From NCBI RefSeq assembly GCF_000016125.1, contig NC_009135.1, forward strand, positions 1,674,001-1,738,000: a stretch of DNA of 64,000 nt. The letters run 5' to 3'. This DNA is from Methanococcus maripaludis C5 (GTDB lineage Archaea > AGJL01 > Methanococci > Methanococcales > Methanococcaceae). Position 1 is the first letter of the stretch. Each line of letters begins with the position of its first letter. Shown one piece after another: positions 25,781 to 54,671 of the stretch. A model generated the notes under the pieces. The model made no database searches, was not told the origin of the DNA, and saw only the letters and a program-made list of their open reading frames with translations. Made by a program: the position numbers and the translations under genes.

Positions 25781-25854
25781 TGCCAAGGGGGTGATTCGAA
25801 CACCCGACAACTGGATCTTCAGTCCAGCGTTCTCCCAGGCTGAACTACCTTGGC
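25781..25854 (-). tRNA. tRNA-Phe (GAA)
   Basis: Folds as a complete cloverleaf on the minus strand: acceptor GCCAAGG/CCTTGGC, anticodon stem CTGGA/TCCAG with loop CTGAAGA (anticodon GAA), T arm CGGGTGTTCGAATCACCCC-type. Discriminator A; CCA is not encoded. It is transcribed opposite to the five-tRNA cluster to its right. Confidence 0.96.
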
Positions 25855-25917
25855 AATTTCCAGTTAAATCCACAATTAAGCATATCCTTTTTGGTATTTA
25901 TACTTTACTACATAAAG

Positions 25918-25926
25918 TTTATATAT
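25918..25926 (+). promoter_or_regulatory. TATA box of the tRNA cluster
   Basis: TTTATATAT at 25918-25926 is a canonical methanococcal box A. About 26 bases downstream lies TGATTGTTATTGTGCG, the likely start of a transcript covering tRNA-Asn through tRNA-His; the later genes have no comparable TATA in the short spacers. Confidence 0.75.
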
Positions 25927-25970
25927 CAGAATGTTGATTGTTATTGTGCGGTCAAGTAGTAAGACAGCGA

Positions 25971-26044
25971 GCCTCCTTAGCTCAGTAGGTAGCAGCGACG
26001 GACTGTTAATCCGTAGGTCGCAGGTTCGAGCCCTGCAGGAGGCG
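25971..26044 (+). tRNA. tRNA-Asn (GTT)
   Basis: Acceptor GCCTCCT/AGGAGGC, anticodon stem ACGGA/TCCGT with loop CTGTTAA (anticodon GTT), T arm with GGTTCGAGC. Discriminator G at 26044; the next three bases happen to be CCA. Confidence 0.96.
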
Positions 26045-26085
26045 CCATTTTTTCTAACAAATTATTCACTCTCAAGACCGGGTAC

Positions 26086-26160
26086 GGGCCCGTAGCTCAG
26101 GCTGGTTAGAGTGCTCGGCTCATAACCGAGTGGTCATGGGTTCAAATCCCATCGGGCCCA
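26086..26160 (+). tRNA. tRNA-Met (CAT)
   Basis: Acceptor GGGCCCG/CGGGCCC, anticodon stem CTCGG/CCGAG with loop CTCATAA (anticodon CAT), discriminator A. It lacks the three consecutive G-C pairs next to the loop (GGG/CCC) of initiator tRNA, so it is an elongator. A tRNA-Ile2 whose CAT anticodon is modified to read AUA cannot be excluded from sequence alone. Confidence 0.9.
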
Positions 26161-26175
26161 TATAATCTGAAACAA

Positions 26176-26250
26176 GCTCCAGTGGTGTAGTCCGGCCAAT
26201 CATCCGGCCCTTTCGAGGCCGGGACTCGGGTTCAAATCCCGGCTGGAGCA
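26176..26250 (+). tRNA. tRNA-Glu (TTC)
   Basis: Acceptor GCTCCAG/CTGGAGC, anticodon stem CGGCC/GGCCG with loop CTTTCGA (anticodon TTC), T arm GGTTCAAATCC, discriminator A. CCA is not encoded. Besides translation, Glu-tRNA starts tetrapyrrole synthesis in methanogens. Confidence 0.96.
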
Positions 26251-26263
26251 TTTATTTTTAAGT

Positions 26264-26348
26264 GCAGGGGTTGTCGAGCCTGGCCAAAGATGCAGGACTT
26301 AGAATCCTGTCCAGTAGTGGTTCCAGGGTTCAAATCCCTGCCCCTGCA
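26264..26348 (+). tRNA. tRNA-Leu (TAG)
   Basis: 85 nt with a long variable arm (GTCCAGTAGTGG region), as expected for class II tRNA. Acceptor GCAGGGG/CCCCTGC, anticodon loop CTTAGAA (anticodon TAG), T arm GGTTCAAATCC, discriminator A. No encoded CCA. Confidence 0.96.
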
Positions 26349-26377
26349 TTATATCAATCGTAAAAGATGATTATTGT

Positions 26378-26450
26378 GGCCGTGGTAGGGTAGTGGCTAT
26401 CCTGAGGGACTGTGGATCCCTCGACCCGGGTTCGATTCCCGGTCTCGGCC
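26378..26450 (+). tRNA. tRNA-His (GTG)
   Basis: Anticodon stem AGGGA/TCCCT with loop CTGTGGA (anticodon GTG). The extra 5' G (26378) pairs with the discriminator C, the tRNA-His identity feature. The acceptor stem has a T-T mismatch at its fifth pair. CCA follows in the DNA at 26451-26453. Last gene of the five-tRNA cluster. Confidence 0.94.
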
Positions 26451-43372: not shown

Positions 43373-44164
43373 ATGAAACTCGCAGTAGTTTTTGATGCAT
43401 CGGGCACTCTTGTAAGCATAAGGAGAATTATCAAAAATGTAGTTACTCAGAAGTTTTTGTGCAACTGTCAGACTGTGGATATCGTAGATCAGAAAGAAGG
43501 ACGAACTCTTGTAATTTTAAAAGAAAATCCCCTCGAAGTATTGGATAATGAAAATCCCGACGTTTTAATTTCAAGTTTTTTGAATGGTGTAAACTGGGGA
43601 ATTTCTTACTGTAATCCTCCAATCGACCAATCAGGGATCTTTAAAGATAATGAAACTAAATTAAAAGAACTCCAGGATCCATTAAAGGTTTTAAAAAGAT
43701 TTGATATTGAAACCGATTATGGTTCAGCAATTATTGCAGATACAATAACTGGCAGGATAGAATATACTGTTGCAACAGGAGGCTGTATTTTCCCAGAAGT
43801 TTCAAGAACAATTCAAACACTTGAAAATATGGGTGCATCGGTATTTATCGCGTCAGGGGACAGTAGAAAATTCATAGAACGGCTTGGAAATATTGTTGGA
43901 GTTCAAAATAAATGTTTAATGCCTGAAGCCCACCATAAATTAAAGAGAGACCTTATTTTAAATTTAAAACAGGACGGATATACTGTAATAATGGTAGGAG
44001 ATGCTTCAAACGATATTTTAGCAATGGAAGAAAGTGATTTATCAGTTATAACTCTTCAAAATGGAAATGTATCAAAAAAAGCGCTAGAAACAGCACAAAT
44101 AAAAATTGAAAATATTTCTGAAATAGTCGATGTAGTTAAAAATTACATAAATGAAAAAAAATAA
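43373..44164 (+). CDS. HAD-superfamily protein
   Basis: 263 residues. Motif I is VFDASGTLVS (about residues 6-15): the nucleophile Asp is present but the usual acid/base Asp two positions later is Ser, as in the P-type-ATPase-like DxTGT pattern. Motif II ASGDSRKF at about 160 and motif III-IV GDASNDILAMEESD at about 205-218 are intact. A cap-like region of about 90 residues lies between. The replaced Asp suggests a phosphatase with slowed hydrolysis or a different reaction. Divergent from the GTPase gene and convergent with mat. Confidence 0.8.
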   Translation: MKLAVVFDASGTLVSIRRIIKNVVTQKFLCNCQTVDIVDQKEGRTLVILKENPLEVLDNENPDVLISSFLNGVNWGISYCNPPIDQSGIFKDNETKLKELQDPLKVLKRFDIETDYGSAIIADTITGRIEYTVATGGCIFPEVSRTIQTLENMGASVFIASGDSRKFIERLGNIVGVQNKCLMPEAHHKLKRDLILNLKQDGYTVIMVGDASNDILAMEESDLSVITLQNGNVSKKALETAQIKIENISEIVDVVKNYINEKK

Positions 44165-51105: not shown

Positions 51106-51435
51106 ATGTCGGACGTAACAATGCTAGTATCTTTAGCTTTAATTTTTGGTTCAATGCTTTCTGGATTTGCAACATTTAGAATGAGTGGAATGAGGTTAAT
51201 GCCTCACTTTATAGCTTTAATTTTGGCATTTGTACTTACTATTGGAACATTCATAACACCAAATATGATAATATTCTATTTGGCAATATTCTTCCAAATT
51301 TTAGCGCCAATAACGGTTTGTGGAACCATATGTAATATCCTAAAGACCCAGTACCAAACCACAGGGATATATTCCTCCCACCTCGCATTAATGGGAATGC
51401 TGATTGTAATGGCGATTGGAAACCTATTGATGTAA
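51106..51435 (+). CDS. Small three-helix membrane protein downstream of TusA-DsrE
   Basis: 109 residues with hydrophobic segments at about 5-23, 35-52, 55-75 and 88-108. AAGGTGAAAAT precedes the ATG, and 13 bases separate it from the TusA-DsrE gene. No motif is recognised. Co-transcription suggests a membrane partner of sulfur transfer, perhaps transport (inference). Confidence 0.7.
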   Translation: MSDVTMLVSLALIFGSMLSGFATFRMSGMRLMPHFIALILAFVLTIGTFITPNMIIFYLAIFFQILAPITVCGTICNILKTQYQTTGIYSSHLALMGMLIVMAIGNLLM

Positions 51436-51981: not shown

Positions 51982-52071
51982 TATTAAGTTTTCTTATAAC
52001 TTATATTTACAAAATGATCATTTTTAAAGTCTAGTTGTGAATTTAAAGATTAATAACTGAACAATTCCCAA

Positions 52072-52210
52072 AAATATAAATATTAAATTTACAAATGTGT
52101 CTTAAGTCCTGTTTTGAATTTATTGGATTATTGTGGACCTTAAAGCTGAAAACTTTTAAAATCTACATTCAACCCCATTTTTTAGCAGGACTGACGTTTT
52201 CAGCTTTTTT
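52072..52210 (+). ncRNA. Candidate pseudoknot small RNA, copy A (with its TATA box)
   Basis: TATA-like AAATATAAATAT at 52072-52083 predicts a start near 52103. Stem a: AGTCCTGTT (52105-52113) pairs with 52184-52192, including one G-U. Stem b: AAAGCTGAAAAC (52142-52153) pairs with GTTTTCAGCTTT (52196-52207). The order a, b, a', b' is that of a pseudoknot. The loop holds GGATTATTGTGGAC, identical in copy B. The element ends in CAGCTTTTTT, an oligo-T typical of archaeal termination. Start and end are predictions, not mapped. Confidence 0.5.
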
Positions 52211-52442
52211 AACAATTAATAAAACGATGTGTCGATTTTGCGTCATATTCAATTTTCAAATATTTGATCATTTTATCGAGGTTATAACCTCTTTAAAACC
52301 TTTATTTTCAACACTGAAACACTTTAGATCTAATTTCGATCTAAATCTCAAGATATCTTTAATATTAAAATGCCCAGATTAACAAATAAATCGATATATG
52401 ATTTTAAATGTTGATTTGGTGCCATAATTTTCCATATTTCCG

Positions 52443-52568
52443 AAAAATATAAATATGAAATCCACATATGTGGTTTTAGTCCTGTTTAGCATTATCGGAT
52501 TATTGTGGACTTCGAAGCTGAAAATATGAAAATATTCTCCCCAAACAGGACTAATATTTTCAGCTTTT
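52443..52568 (+). ncRNA. Candidate pseudoknot small RNA, copy B (with its TATA box)
   Basis: TATA-like AAAAATATAAATAT at 52443-52456 predicts a start near 52477. Stem a: 52477-52487 (TAGTCCTGTTT) pairs perfectly with 52543-52553. Stem b: 52515-52527 (AAGCTGAAAATAT) pairs perfectly with 52554-52566, with no spacer between a' and b', so the two helices could stack. Compared with copy A, one pair of stem b changes from C-G to T-A with pairing kept. The loop motif GGATTATTGTGGAC is unchanged. A palindrome CCACATATGTGG (52462-52473) sits between TATA box and start. The tail is CAGCTTTTC. Confidence 0.55.
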
Positions 52569-52589
52569 CTGAAATGCTTTTTTAAAATT

Positions 52590-52873
52590 TTACACGTTCA
52601 ATACATTACAAGCACTGTTTTCTAAAAGCTCTTTAAGATCTTTTAACGAGTATATTTCTTTTGGAACATTCATTTTATTTTTAAGAGGAATTTCGATCTC
52701 AAATCTCAAAAATCTCGATTTTTATCGGGCCCCGAATAAACGTTTAATTTTTCTATTTTATCCCAAATGCAATGATTTTTTATAGTTTCAAGCAAAGAAG
52801 TATGGTGGCGAGAAATCGCTATATTGTCCACAACAATTCGATAAATTCAGGAATTTATCGTCACAATTTTCAT
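52590..52873 (-). pseudogene. Transposase-like relic 2 (IS630-like C-terminal part)
   Basis: Minus-strand translation gives RIVVDNIAISRHHTSLLETI, then KNHCIWDKIEKLNVYSGPDKN, then after a one-frame shift EIEIPLKNKMNVPKEIYSL and KDLKELLENSACNVLNV with a TAA at 52590. The succession VVDN..H, then a (V)YS.PD.N block about 35 residues later, resembles the second Asp and the YSPDLNPIE region of IS630/Tc1-type DDE transposases. At least one frameshift, one internal stop and a damaged PIE motif make it a pseudogene. The family assignment rests on motif resemblance only. Confidence 0.4.
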
Positions 52874-52968
52874 TAAGTTTTTATCTCTTTTTTTCTATTT
52901 TATCCCAAACCTAATTACTTTTTATAATCCCGATTACAGAATATATATTGGCGAGAAATCGTCAAGCA
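52748..52968. repeat. Two degenerate direct repeats, ~80 bp, 141 bp apart
   Basis: 52748-52827 and 52889-52968 share TTTTTCTATTTTATCCCAAA near the left end and GGCGAGAAATCG near the right end, with a variable middle. On the minus strand both read into an AISR(H/Q)...WDKIEK segment, so the second copy is another scrap of the relic 2 transposase. A weaker third copy (CTTTATCCCAATATGCAAG) lies near 51715. Confidence 0.5.
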
Positions 52969-53162
52969 CTCTTCATAATGGCCCATATACTACCCTCGTA
53001 TAAAGTAGTTAAAATAAACCCAATAAGTGTGTGAAATTACGATTTTTTTCTAAAAATTTCTTTTTTTGATAATTTTAATCATTTTATACGTATTTGTTGT
53101 AACTTTTTCGATCTTTACACGACCGAAAATGGCTTATATGCAAATTTTCAAAATTTGTATTA

Positions 53163-53182
53163 CCTGAGAATTATTTCTCAGG
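53163..53182 (+). other. Perfect hairpin CCTGAGAA-TTAT-TTCTCAGG
   Basis: Eight base pairs with a four-base loop, extendable by TA/TA with one bulged G. TATTTGGGGGATTATAAGTGG follows at 53184, which resembles the conserved loop region of the two hairpins at 53219 and 53288. Confidence 0.5.
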
Positions 53183-53218
53183 GTATTTGGGGGATTATAA
53201 GTGGCAGTGGTTTCAATA

Positions 53219-53332
53219 TTTGGGACTGTTTATTTAGAGGGGATTTAAATGGTCCTTAAAGTTTATTTTTTTAATGGGTTTCATACCTTTAGAACAGTTC
53301 AATTTTTGAGGGGATTTTGGATCTGTTCTGAA
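53219..53332 (+). ncRNA. Pair of homologous hairpins with shared GAGGGGATTT loop
   Basis: Hairpin 1: 53219-53232 pairs with 53246-53260 (one bulge, three G-U). Hairpin 2: TTTAGAACAG at 53288-53297 pairs with CTGTTCTGAA at 53323-53332 (one G-U). The stems differ in sequence but both pair, while the apical GAGGGGATTT (53237-53246 and 53308-53317) is identical. The G-U pairs only work on the plus strand, so this is the likely RNA strand. No convincing TATA box is directly upstream. A T6 run follows hairpin 2 at 53341-53346. Confidence 0.4.
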
Positions 53333-53407
53333 AATTTAACTTTTTTAAGTTTTAAAATCCAATTTAGTGAATATACTAAATTAAAGGCACAAAAACCTAC
53401 ACAAATC

Positions 53408-53495
53408 AAATATATATTTTAAAAACCACTTTTTTATTAAGTCCCGAATGTCCAGATGGATCAGATGTTATAGGTTCAAGTTTCTGGATTTCGGG
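53408..53495 (+). ncRNA. Candidate small RNA: TATA box plus two-part stem-loop
   Basis: A TATA box AATATATATT at 53408-53417 predicts a start near 53440. There CCCGAA (53443-53448) and TCCAGA (53451-53456) pair with TTCGGG (53490-53495) and TCTGGA (53483-53488), two 6-bp helices separated by a small internal loop and closed by a 26-base loop. Single copy, so no covariation support. Confidence 0.3.
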
Positions 53496-54068
53496 TTGCA
53501 TGACCTCAATTTACATTTTCAGAGTTACGTTAAATTTGTGCCATTTAATGTATCAAATAAACCTGAAACAACAGATCATTACCTCGAATACTCAAAATAC
53601 CACTTTTTTTAAAATGCCGTATTACTTCTGTCCTAATTTCGCAGATCGGGGCAGAATTTTGAATTTTTTAAACAGATGATTCACTTCTAAAACTCTAGCA
53701 ATGCCCGTATGCATTAGAATATGTCACCCTCAATGCTCTTTTATACTGTATTCACATTTCATTTTCAAAATTTCTTTTTTATTTTTCCACAATTGAACCC
53801 TTAAATCATTGTTTAGACATCTTCATGAATAAAAACGTATTCAAGAGATTTTTCGTTTTCAATCATGTAATTTTCGCATTGCGGACAGATAAAGTACATT
53901 TCAAGAGTGCCAGAAAGTATTTTGCAAAATTATTTATTAAAAGATTAAATTATTATATTTTTATTTACAGATGTGTATACATATGAATTTATTAAATTGG
54001 CCAAAGCAGGATTTAAATTAATTACTAGATATGCCACACACTGAAATTTAGATTAAAAGAGGGATATT

Positions 54069-54671
54069 TTGGATGATAAATTAAATGATCTAAAAATCGA
54101 ACGCGACGACTATAAAAAAGTACTATATCGGTATTTAATACTTCTTTCGATCGGAATTAACATTGTTGGAGCACATTTGGTGCTTTTTTTAAATTTACCT
54201 GCTTATTTGGATAGTGTGGGAACAATTCTCGCCGCAATTTTGATGGGGCCAATAATTGGGGCAATTGTAGGTCTTGCAACACATTTTGGTTTAGGGGTAA
54301 TCCTGGGGCCGGTTTATTTCCATTTTGCAATTGTAAATGGATTAATTGGACTTATTACGGGTTACATATTTGATAAATACCCCTTTAATTTAAAAACAGT
54401 TCTTGTAGCATCTGTCATTATTTCATTAATGGCTTCACTAATGGGGAATACCATAAGTTACATTGTATTTTCGGGAATTACTGGTGAATCAGTTGATATT
54501 TTAACAGAACATCTGTTAGAACTTGGTTTTAACTTGTTTACTGCTGTATACATATCGGGATTTTTCTCAAATTTCTTGGATAAATTGATTTCATTTGCAA
54601 TAGTGTTTTATGTAATAGTACTACTATGCGATAAATTCAAACTAAAAGAATTTGAAATATGTAGAAAATAA
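54069..54671 (+). CDS. ECF transporter S-component-like membrane protein
   Basis: 200 residues from a TTG at 54069 after GAGGGAT. A charged N-terminus (about 1-18) is followed by about five to six membrane segments. NLPAYLDSVGTILAAILMGP (about 44-63) and IGAIVGLATHFG are typical of substrate-binding S components of energy-coupling factor transporters. No ECF A or T gene is adjacent, so it would share a distant module or act alone. Substrate unknown. A broken paralogue lies at 55593. Confidence 0.7.
   Translation: MDDKLNDLKIERDDYKKVLYRYLILLSIGINIVGAHLVLFLNLPAYLDSVGTILAAILMGPIIGAIVGLATHFGLGVILGPVYFHFAIVNGLIGLITGYIFDKYPFNLKTVLVASVIISLMASLMGNTISYIVFSGITGESVDILTEHLLELGFNLFTAVYISGFFSNFLDKLISFAIVFYVIVLLCDKFKLKEFEICRK

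Follow-up and report, generated by a model that had tools for sequence, protein, structure and literature searches.

The 64,000-nucleotide stretch of the Methanococcus maripaludis C5 genome that we analysed (contig NC_009135.1, positions 1,674,001 to 1,738,000; hereafter the window, whose coordinates are used unless a genome or contig is named) contains a stretch free of genes, bounded by a DUF5400 gene (51106-51435) on one side and by an ECF-transporter S-component gene (54069-54671) on the other. Two hairpins at 53219-53332 lie in this stretch, and they are part of a non-coding element of about 1.2 kb on the plus strand (approximately 52430-53671). Further copies of the S-component gene are located in the same genome (G000) at 1236627-1237229, 1603888, 1156147 and 1060854. 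Searching the window with Rfam 15 yielded six tRNAs only and no family for the element; the six tRNA genes form a cluster at 25781-26450, with five on the plus strand.

Hairpin 1 pairs positions 53222-53232 with 53246-53256 (11 pairs, three of them G·U) around the loop TTTAGAGGGGATT, and hairpin 2 pairs 53288-53302 with 53317-53332 (15 pairs and a bulged base at 53322) around the loop region TTTTTGAGGGGATT. The loop motif GAGGGGATTT is found exactly at 53237 and 53308, and a minus-strand occurrence at 43525 is its only other in the whole window. The preliminary description of this DNA had located both hairpins, given each at least 10 paired positions and noted the identical loop, all of which holds. 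When one mismatch is allowed, the motif has 8 matches in the window compared to 4.3 expected, a number reached by 5 of 100 shuffles. The predicted fold of hairpin 2 (53288-53332) beats 199 of 200 shuffles (z = -3.4), but that of hairpin 1 (53222-53256) is unremarkable, with 20 of 200 shuffles equally good (z = -1.3), and an unconstrained fold of the whole 131 nt pairs the two hairpin regions with each other. Because the hairpin evidence is uneven when taken singly, the case for the hairpins rests on comparison.

We built a covariance model (R1) from 12 units and searched 36 genomes with E-values up to 0.05; the phylum-wide search covers the same 36 genomes as the order-wide one. The model has 29 matches in five of these genomes: 14 in the strain's own genome, 11 in G002 (another Methanococcus species), two in G004, and one each in G003 and G025. 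The G025 match (E = 0.039) is marginal and was treated as chance, leaving the unit in four of the 36 genomes. Both hairpins align to one helix, P4, of this single RNA family. In the model-fitted alignment of the 29 matches, which retains a probable chance match at L105:9819-9960 (E = 0.019), 94.6% of cells are paired and all 16 pairs of helices P1 and P4 are double-changed, as high as none of 500 shuffles. Such an alignment leans towards the structure; therefore, 14 copies selected for their diversity were aligned without structure and counted again. Here, 87.7% of cells are paired (34-56% in slid versions) and 13 of 17 pairs are double-changed. Neither the paired percentage nor the covariation score was matched in 500 shuffles, the number of double-changed pairs was matched by one of 500, and the further pair types were matched by 134 of 500. 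P4 in particular keeps its pairing through double changes on this alignment made without structure.

The same signal is weak among the 12 closest unit copies (two double-changed pairs; 5 of 500 shuffles). In an unconstrained covariation scan, the top pairs include P1 and P4 mixed with non-helical pairs and, consequently, helix claims from the scan stop at P1 and P4. A further putative helix of the units, P0 (AACCC with GGGGA), is proposed from reading the complementary strands, including AACTCC variants, and is given without a count. The comparison also covered freely varying loops and unpaired stems, which the preliminary description had named as evidence against a functional RNA. The stems pair in the related copies, where further compensatory changes were found; the loop is not invariant, with a GGGG core in 18 and the exact GAGGGGATTT in 6 of 22 P4 hairpins that were picked by eye and listed by hand. 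The compensated stems of a functional RNA hairpin are thus supported by covariation on both alignments. Taken as a statement about sequences, these comparisons establish a family of structured, non-coding, modular elements with compensatory changes that is tied to integrated elements.

The strain's own genome holds two more long copies with about 80% identity, as well as partial copies. Copy A (L009; G000:910.5-911.65 kb) lies in integrated element A and copy B (L010; 1227.2-1228.3 kb) in integrated element B, and a shorter copy is found in a third integrated element, C, in G002. Elements A and B share a helicase (86% identical), a replication-block protein, an ATPase and an integrase, and the G002 element shares the replication-block protein, the ATPase and a 488/487-aa protein. 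In all three elements, the RNA has the replication block on one side and the membrane-protein block on the other, and runs on the opposite strand. The integrated elements yielded no identifiable capsid gene, and phage and plasmid collections contained no match for the two element proteins tried; on these grounds we name the elements virus/plasmid-like. Phage and plasmid records gave no match for the RNA either. IMG/VR returned nothing for the helicase, a 467-aa protein or the P4 hairpin pattern, and the GTDB 220 collection nothing for a WYL-like protein described below or the P4 pattern; several of the database searches without matches possibly left out records very near the strain's own genome. 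A relation to the 8.3-kb plasmid contig L052 was considered and rejected, as the contig has no model match.

Reading the copies together, the plus-strand order is a 5′ module with a pseudoknot, one or two GAAA-capped hairpins, two units, a 3′ domain, a closing hairpin and a T-run. In the window copy, the 5′ module is present a second time and a fragment is inserted after it; both GNRA modules, unit 1 and the 3′ domain are there, and unit 2 is represented by its 3′ part alone. The first copy of the 5′ module (51994-52222, plus strand), with a TATA-like promoter and pseudoknot, has 86% identity to L009 5440-5668, copy A being its closest relative. The second (52432-52568, plus strand) carries the TATA-like AAAAATATAAATAT at about 52443-52456, and its pseudoknot begins about 25 nt downstream, a spacing that we take to fit an archaeal promoter. 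AAAATATAAATA is invariant in all six aligned 5′ modules. The pseudoknot is composed of two plus-strand stems, each formed by complementary segments: stem a (52476-52487 with 52543-52554), which is kept in the aligned 5′ modules, and stem b (52515-52527 with 52554-52566), which interlocks with it in the order a-b-a′-b′. Across six sequences, 96% of the cells of both stems are paired, compared to 37-55% in slid versions. The pseudoknot is conserved more than covarying, with one of 21 pairs double-changed and 90 of 500 shuffles equal.

An inserted segment (52576-52745) separates the second 5′ module from the first GNRA module; neither of the full-length copies, A and B, has a counterpart to it, and its sole match is weak, partial and to L109. 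Its minus strand (52590-52720) carries a gene fragment ending ...MNVPKEIYSLKDLKELLENSACNVLNV* when translated by eye, suggesting that recombination between copies may have placed a gene fragment inside the relic RNA. A plus-strand long-range helix, GGATTATTGTGGAC with GTCCACAACAATTC (52497-52510 with 52826-52839), has 13 of 14 positions paired in the window and 14 of 14 in copy B; copy A is without the partner strand. The GAAA-capped (GNRA) hairpins, identified by helix comparison among copies, are on the plus strand at 52805-52821 in module 1 (52748-52861) and at 52948-52964 in module 2 (52889-53000; TTGGCGA-GAAA-TCGTCAA), and the stem of the latter varies across copies as GGCGA/UCGCU, GGCGA/UCGUC and GACGAG/CUCGUC.

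Unit 1 occupies 53101-53256 on the plus strand (model R1, E = 1.3e-5; 6.4e-5 in the whole-genome search). Its helix P1 (CCTGAG at 53163-53168 with CTCAGG at 53177-53182) covaries both in the 29 matches and in the structure-free alignment, and its P4, identified by fold and covariation, is hairpin 1 (53222-53256). Unit 2 is a plus-strand remnant whose 5′ half is absent in the window copy (53262-53328; model positions 103-169, E = 2.5e-4), and its P4 is, on the same grounds, hairpin 2 (53288-53332). The preliminary description was therefore right to speak of a repeated unit, as the two hairpins are the ends of two tandem homologous units. The 3′ domain (53335-53671, plus strand; 79-80% identity to copies A and B) contains a double helix, P5 (53443-53448/53490-53495 and 53451-53456/53483-53488), that pairs with compensatory changes in 5 of 5 copies listed. 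A plus-strand closing hairpin, TTCTGTCC...GGGGCAGAA followed by TTTTGAATTTTTT (53626-53669), is likewise paired in all five copies listed, one of which has a C-G to U-A change. The helix counts for the GNRA hairpins, P5 and the closing hairpin were made on copies chosen because the helix was recognisable, and the 5/5 figures consequently describe a selected set. The closing hairpin and TTTTGAATTTTTT are likely a terminator; a bacterial-terminator scan did not output this hairpin because its loop is too long for the scan.

The preliminary description had read the plus strand from the G-U pairs. In the alignment, 37 G·U versus 5 A·C wobble cells support this choice, and the plus strand outfolds its complement in 21 of the 22 hand-listed P4 hairpins. 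Over the long element of the window copy and of copy B, the two strands fold with about the same stability (z = -3.7 to -3.8; 30 shuffles each), and therefore bulk folding does not name the strand. From the promoter, the wobble bias and the closing hairpin, we infer that the element is transcribed from the plus strand.

It is extremely improbable that the hairpins arose by chance or belong to a small protein gene, even though hairpin 1 alone is no better than shuffles, copy A has a 154-aa frame that overlaps unit 1, and in the window a 57-aa frame starts at 53249. The covariation on the model-fitted (29 matches) and structure-free (14 copies) alignments rules out chance. The 154-aa frame is open in the window and shut in copy B, and its changes are spread evenly over the codon positions (11/11/14) and are mostly nonsynonymous (19 nonsynonymous versus 9 synonymous codons), on which grounds a coding origin was rejected.

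Decayed genes flank the window copy. On its 3′ side, two minus-strand fragments follow the gene order of element C: 53671-53778 derives from its 94-aa gene (tblastn, 67% over 36 aa) and contains two stops, and 53834-53929 derives from the C terminus of its 452-aa replication-block gene (62% over 32 aa). Upstream, a remnant at 51652-51782 matches DNA from the end of integrated element A (G000:902455-902590) with 79% identity. The downstream element C fragments, taken with the upstream element A-end fragment, mark the window copy as a relic, on these alignments that of a fourth integrated element. One copy of the ECF S-component gene, 89% identical, adjoins integrated element B, just as the gene at 54069-54671 adjoins the relic.

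A rival explanation is that the element acts as DNA: it would serve the integrated elements as a replication origin or a single-strand recombination site, and the hairpins would be foldbacks recognised by a protein. It is non-coding and repeat-rich, it lies next to the replication block in each of the three elements, and its copies sit at synteny breaks; a single-strand DNA site could also give the same wobble bias. We liken elements A-C, without assigning them, to the pT26-2 plasmid family, which is integrated in Methanococcus; a survey of this family predicts origins in repeat-rich non-coding regions near rep genes and lists a remnant for strain C5 (PMC6972569). Unlike the conserved element, those origins are reported without a conserved consensus (PMC6972569). 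Two orthologous solo units (G000:C1:575292, L051:10293; and G002:C2:6139, L046), identical over about 400 upstream bases and most of the unit, diverge from a point inside P4, where the unit could be the mark of a recombination junction; the next genes in the strain's own genome are EVE-like and type I restriction genes. However, the promoter-pseudoknot geometry, the one-strand wobble bias and the 3′ hairpin with its T-run fit a transcript better, and the units double as the 5′ leader of a gene. A DNA site is, on balance, an unlikely explanation.

We assign a similarly low likelihood to a MITE-like or solo repeat that is spread by recombination and tolerated at gene ends, with P4 and a T-tract acting as a terminator. 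Several solo units do directly follow a stop codon, on the same strand as the gene, TTAACTTTTTTT comes after many P4 hairpins, and solo units at ordinary gene ends fit a passive repeat or terminator as well as they fit an RNA. The full-length element, by contrast, occupies a fixed place in the integrated elements, and along its 1.2 kb the modules stay in order and the helices covary; a simple terminator needs neither P1, the pseudoknot nor the 3′ domain. An empty site, as for a MITE, was not found in the loci compared. A partial 3′ domain without visible other modules is located at G000:C1:1490456-1490567 (L011:6457-6568, minus strand), between a chemoreceptor-like gene and an IMP dehydrogenase gene.

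Two units are located directly upstream of a 96-aa WYL-like gene at three loci (G000:921.1 kb, G000:1096.2 kb and G002:C2:24.8 kb), that is, in three of four intact copies of the gene; two more copies are broken, and at the G004 locus the order is reversed, with the gene ahead of its unit. The gene is found in 3 of the 36 genomes, all of them unit-bearing, and no WYL gene was found in the searched stretches of element B and the G002 element. The leaders, when read, show a second unit that lacks P4 and whose GGGGG strand serves as the ribosome site GAGGGGGAATTAAATG, so that the ribosome-binding GGGGG lies inside the unit, opposite AACCC. The P4 hairpins of these leaders are without GGGG. Against the Pfam WYL model (PF13280), the 96-aa protein scores 20.9 bits, below the cut-off of 21.8, with E = 3.6e-4 over model positions 2-68 of 70, and a PDB sequence search gave no related WYL chain. 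Behind the WYL-like gene there is each time a conserved gene of about 97 aa (L104:11485-12127, L105:6358-6998 and L106:6077-6718), without a Pfam match and winged-helix-like by eye.

Tandem structured units directly upstream of a small gene, as at these three loci, resemble type III toxin-antitoxin systems, in which tandem RNA repeats bind and silence a neighbouring toxin, and the preliminary description had offered a repeated antitoxin unit. The antitoxin part of that proposal fails: no type III toxin-like gene was seen beside the copies, and the units are about 150-170 nt long within a 1.2-kb RNA. Known type III antitoxin repeats are a few tens of nucleotides. There is no ToxN-like endoribonuclease beside the repeats, the small neighbour resembling a WYL protein rather than a ToxN-type nuclease, and no such small gene lies beside the full-length copies. 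The arrays differ further in that the second unit overlaps the ribosome site GAGGGGGAATTAAATG, with no terminator between repeats and gene in the leaders as read. A type III system is therefore very unlikely. For the protein-binding site that the preliminary description had also suggested, the WYL-like protein is a candidate binder, as its own gene has the same units in the leader.

The reading we prefer, with a probability of roughly 0.65, is that the element is a modular structured non-coding RNA gene of about 1.2 kb, belonging to integrated Methanococcus elements and acting in trans, with the WYL-like protein as a candidate partner. Judged by the alignments, the two hairpins are the P4 helices of two tandem homologous units in this predicted gene, and the window holds a relic copy. 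Transcription would start at the RNA's own TATA promoter, run in the direction opposite to the flanking element genes and stop at the closing hairpin plus U-tract. The transcript would fold into a 5′ pseudoknot domain, GNRA hairpins, units with P0 (AACCC with GGGGA), P1 and P4, and a 3′ domain. Once folded, the RNA may serve as a trans-acting scaffold or sponge, most likely for the WYL-like protein, although trans action with this protein is conjecture. Because the ribosome-binding GGGGG lies inside the leader unit, a protein (or the ribosome) binding that unit would control translation of the protein's own gene, and the long element RNA, whose GGGG loops would be exposed, would act as a competitor for the WYL-like protein.

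A simple GGGG sponge was rejected as the whole story: G-runs are only mildly enriched in the window copy (4 versus 1.9; 26 of 300 shuffles), and the WYL-leader P4 hairpins are without GGGG. A more elaborate circuit is a doubtful extension of the RNA-gene reading. There, the WYL-like protein would grip the ribosome-site unit and repress its own translation, the 1.2-kb RNA would titrate it through its homologous units and its GGGG loops, with which a C-rich loop of the pseudoknot could form kissing contacts, and relic and solo copies in the chromosome would provide RNA-based interference in trans with incoming elements of the same family.

The nearest kind of known RNA is that of GOLLD and ROOL, large ornate phage and prophage RNAs described as pseudoknotted, multi-domain and of unknown function, with suspected loop-loop contacts (PMC12286853). 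The Methanococcus element is likewise a large, multi-domain, pseudoknotted non-coding RNA, as predicted, in integrated or viral elements, and loop-loop contacts may be suspected in it as well. Its long covarying multi-domain structure in (pro)viral elements would place it in the functional class of large ornate RNAs of mobile elements. It differs in having no Rfam match, an archaeal host and no tRNA island at the window relic, and in being built from repeated units of about 160 nt that are also found solo and as the leader of a protein gene. In the region of copy A, Rfam 15 searched to E = 5 gave four chance-level eukaryotic matches (12-19 bits compared to cut-offs of 50-65). No Rfam 15 family, GOLLD, ROOL, OLE, HEARO, tRNA-like RNAs and riboswitches included, thus reached its gathering threshold in the element.

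A second comparison is with the CsrB and RsmZ sponge RNAs of CsrA, which present tandem hairpins with G-rich loops. The element shares such hairpins and a small protein gene with the same motif at its ribosome site, but the candidate protein is WYL-like, the G-runs are only mildly enriched, and there are many other conserved domains. WYL domains have an Sm-like barrel, and RspWYL1, a Cas13d accessory protein, binds single-stranded RNA (PMC6547453). RspWYL1 has three domains and needs the others for RNA binding, unlike the stand-alone 96-aa archaeal protein with its borderline WYL assignment (PMC6547453).

No published description of this element was found in the literature searched, which comprised open-licence PMC papers. 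Bacterial phages are known to carry large ornate RNAs whose function is unknown (GOLLD and ROOL), and a comparable RNA in integrated elements of Methanococcus, which has close relatives among the genetically tractable laboratory archaea, would make the question accessible to direct genetics in the other domain of prokaryotes. The RNA comes with a candidate protein partner and, in the leader of the WYL-like gene, a built-in reporter. As the window copy shows, non-coding relics of integrated elements can retain RNA structure.
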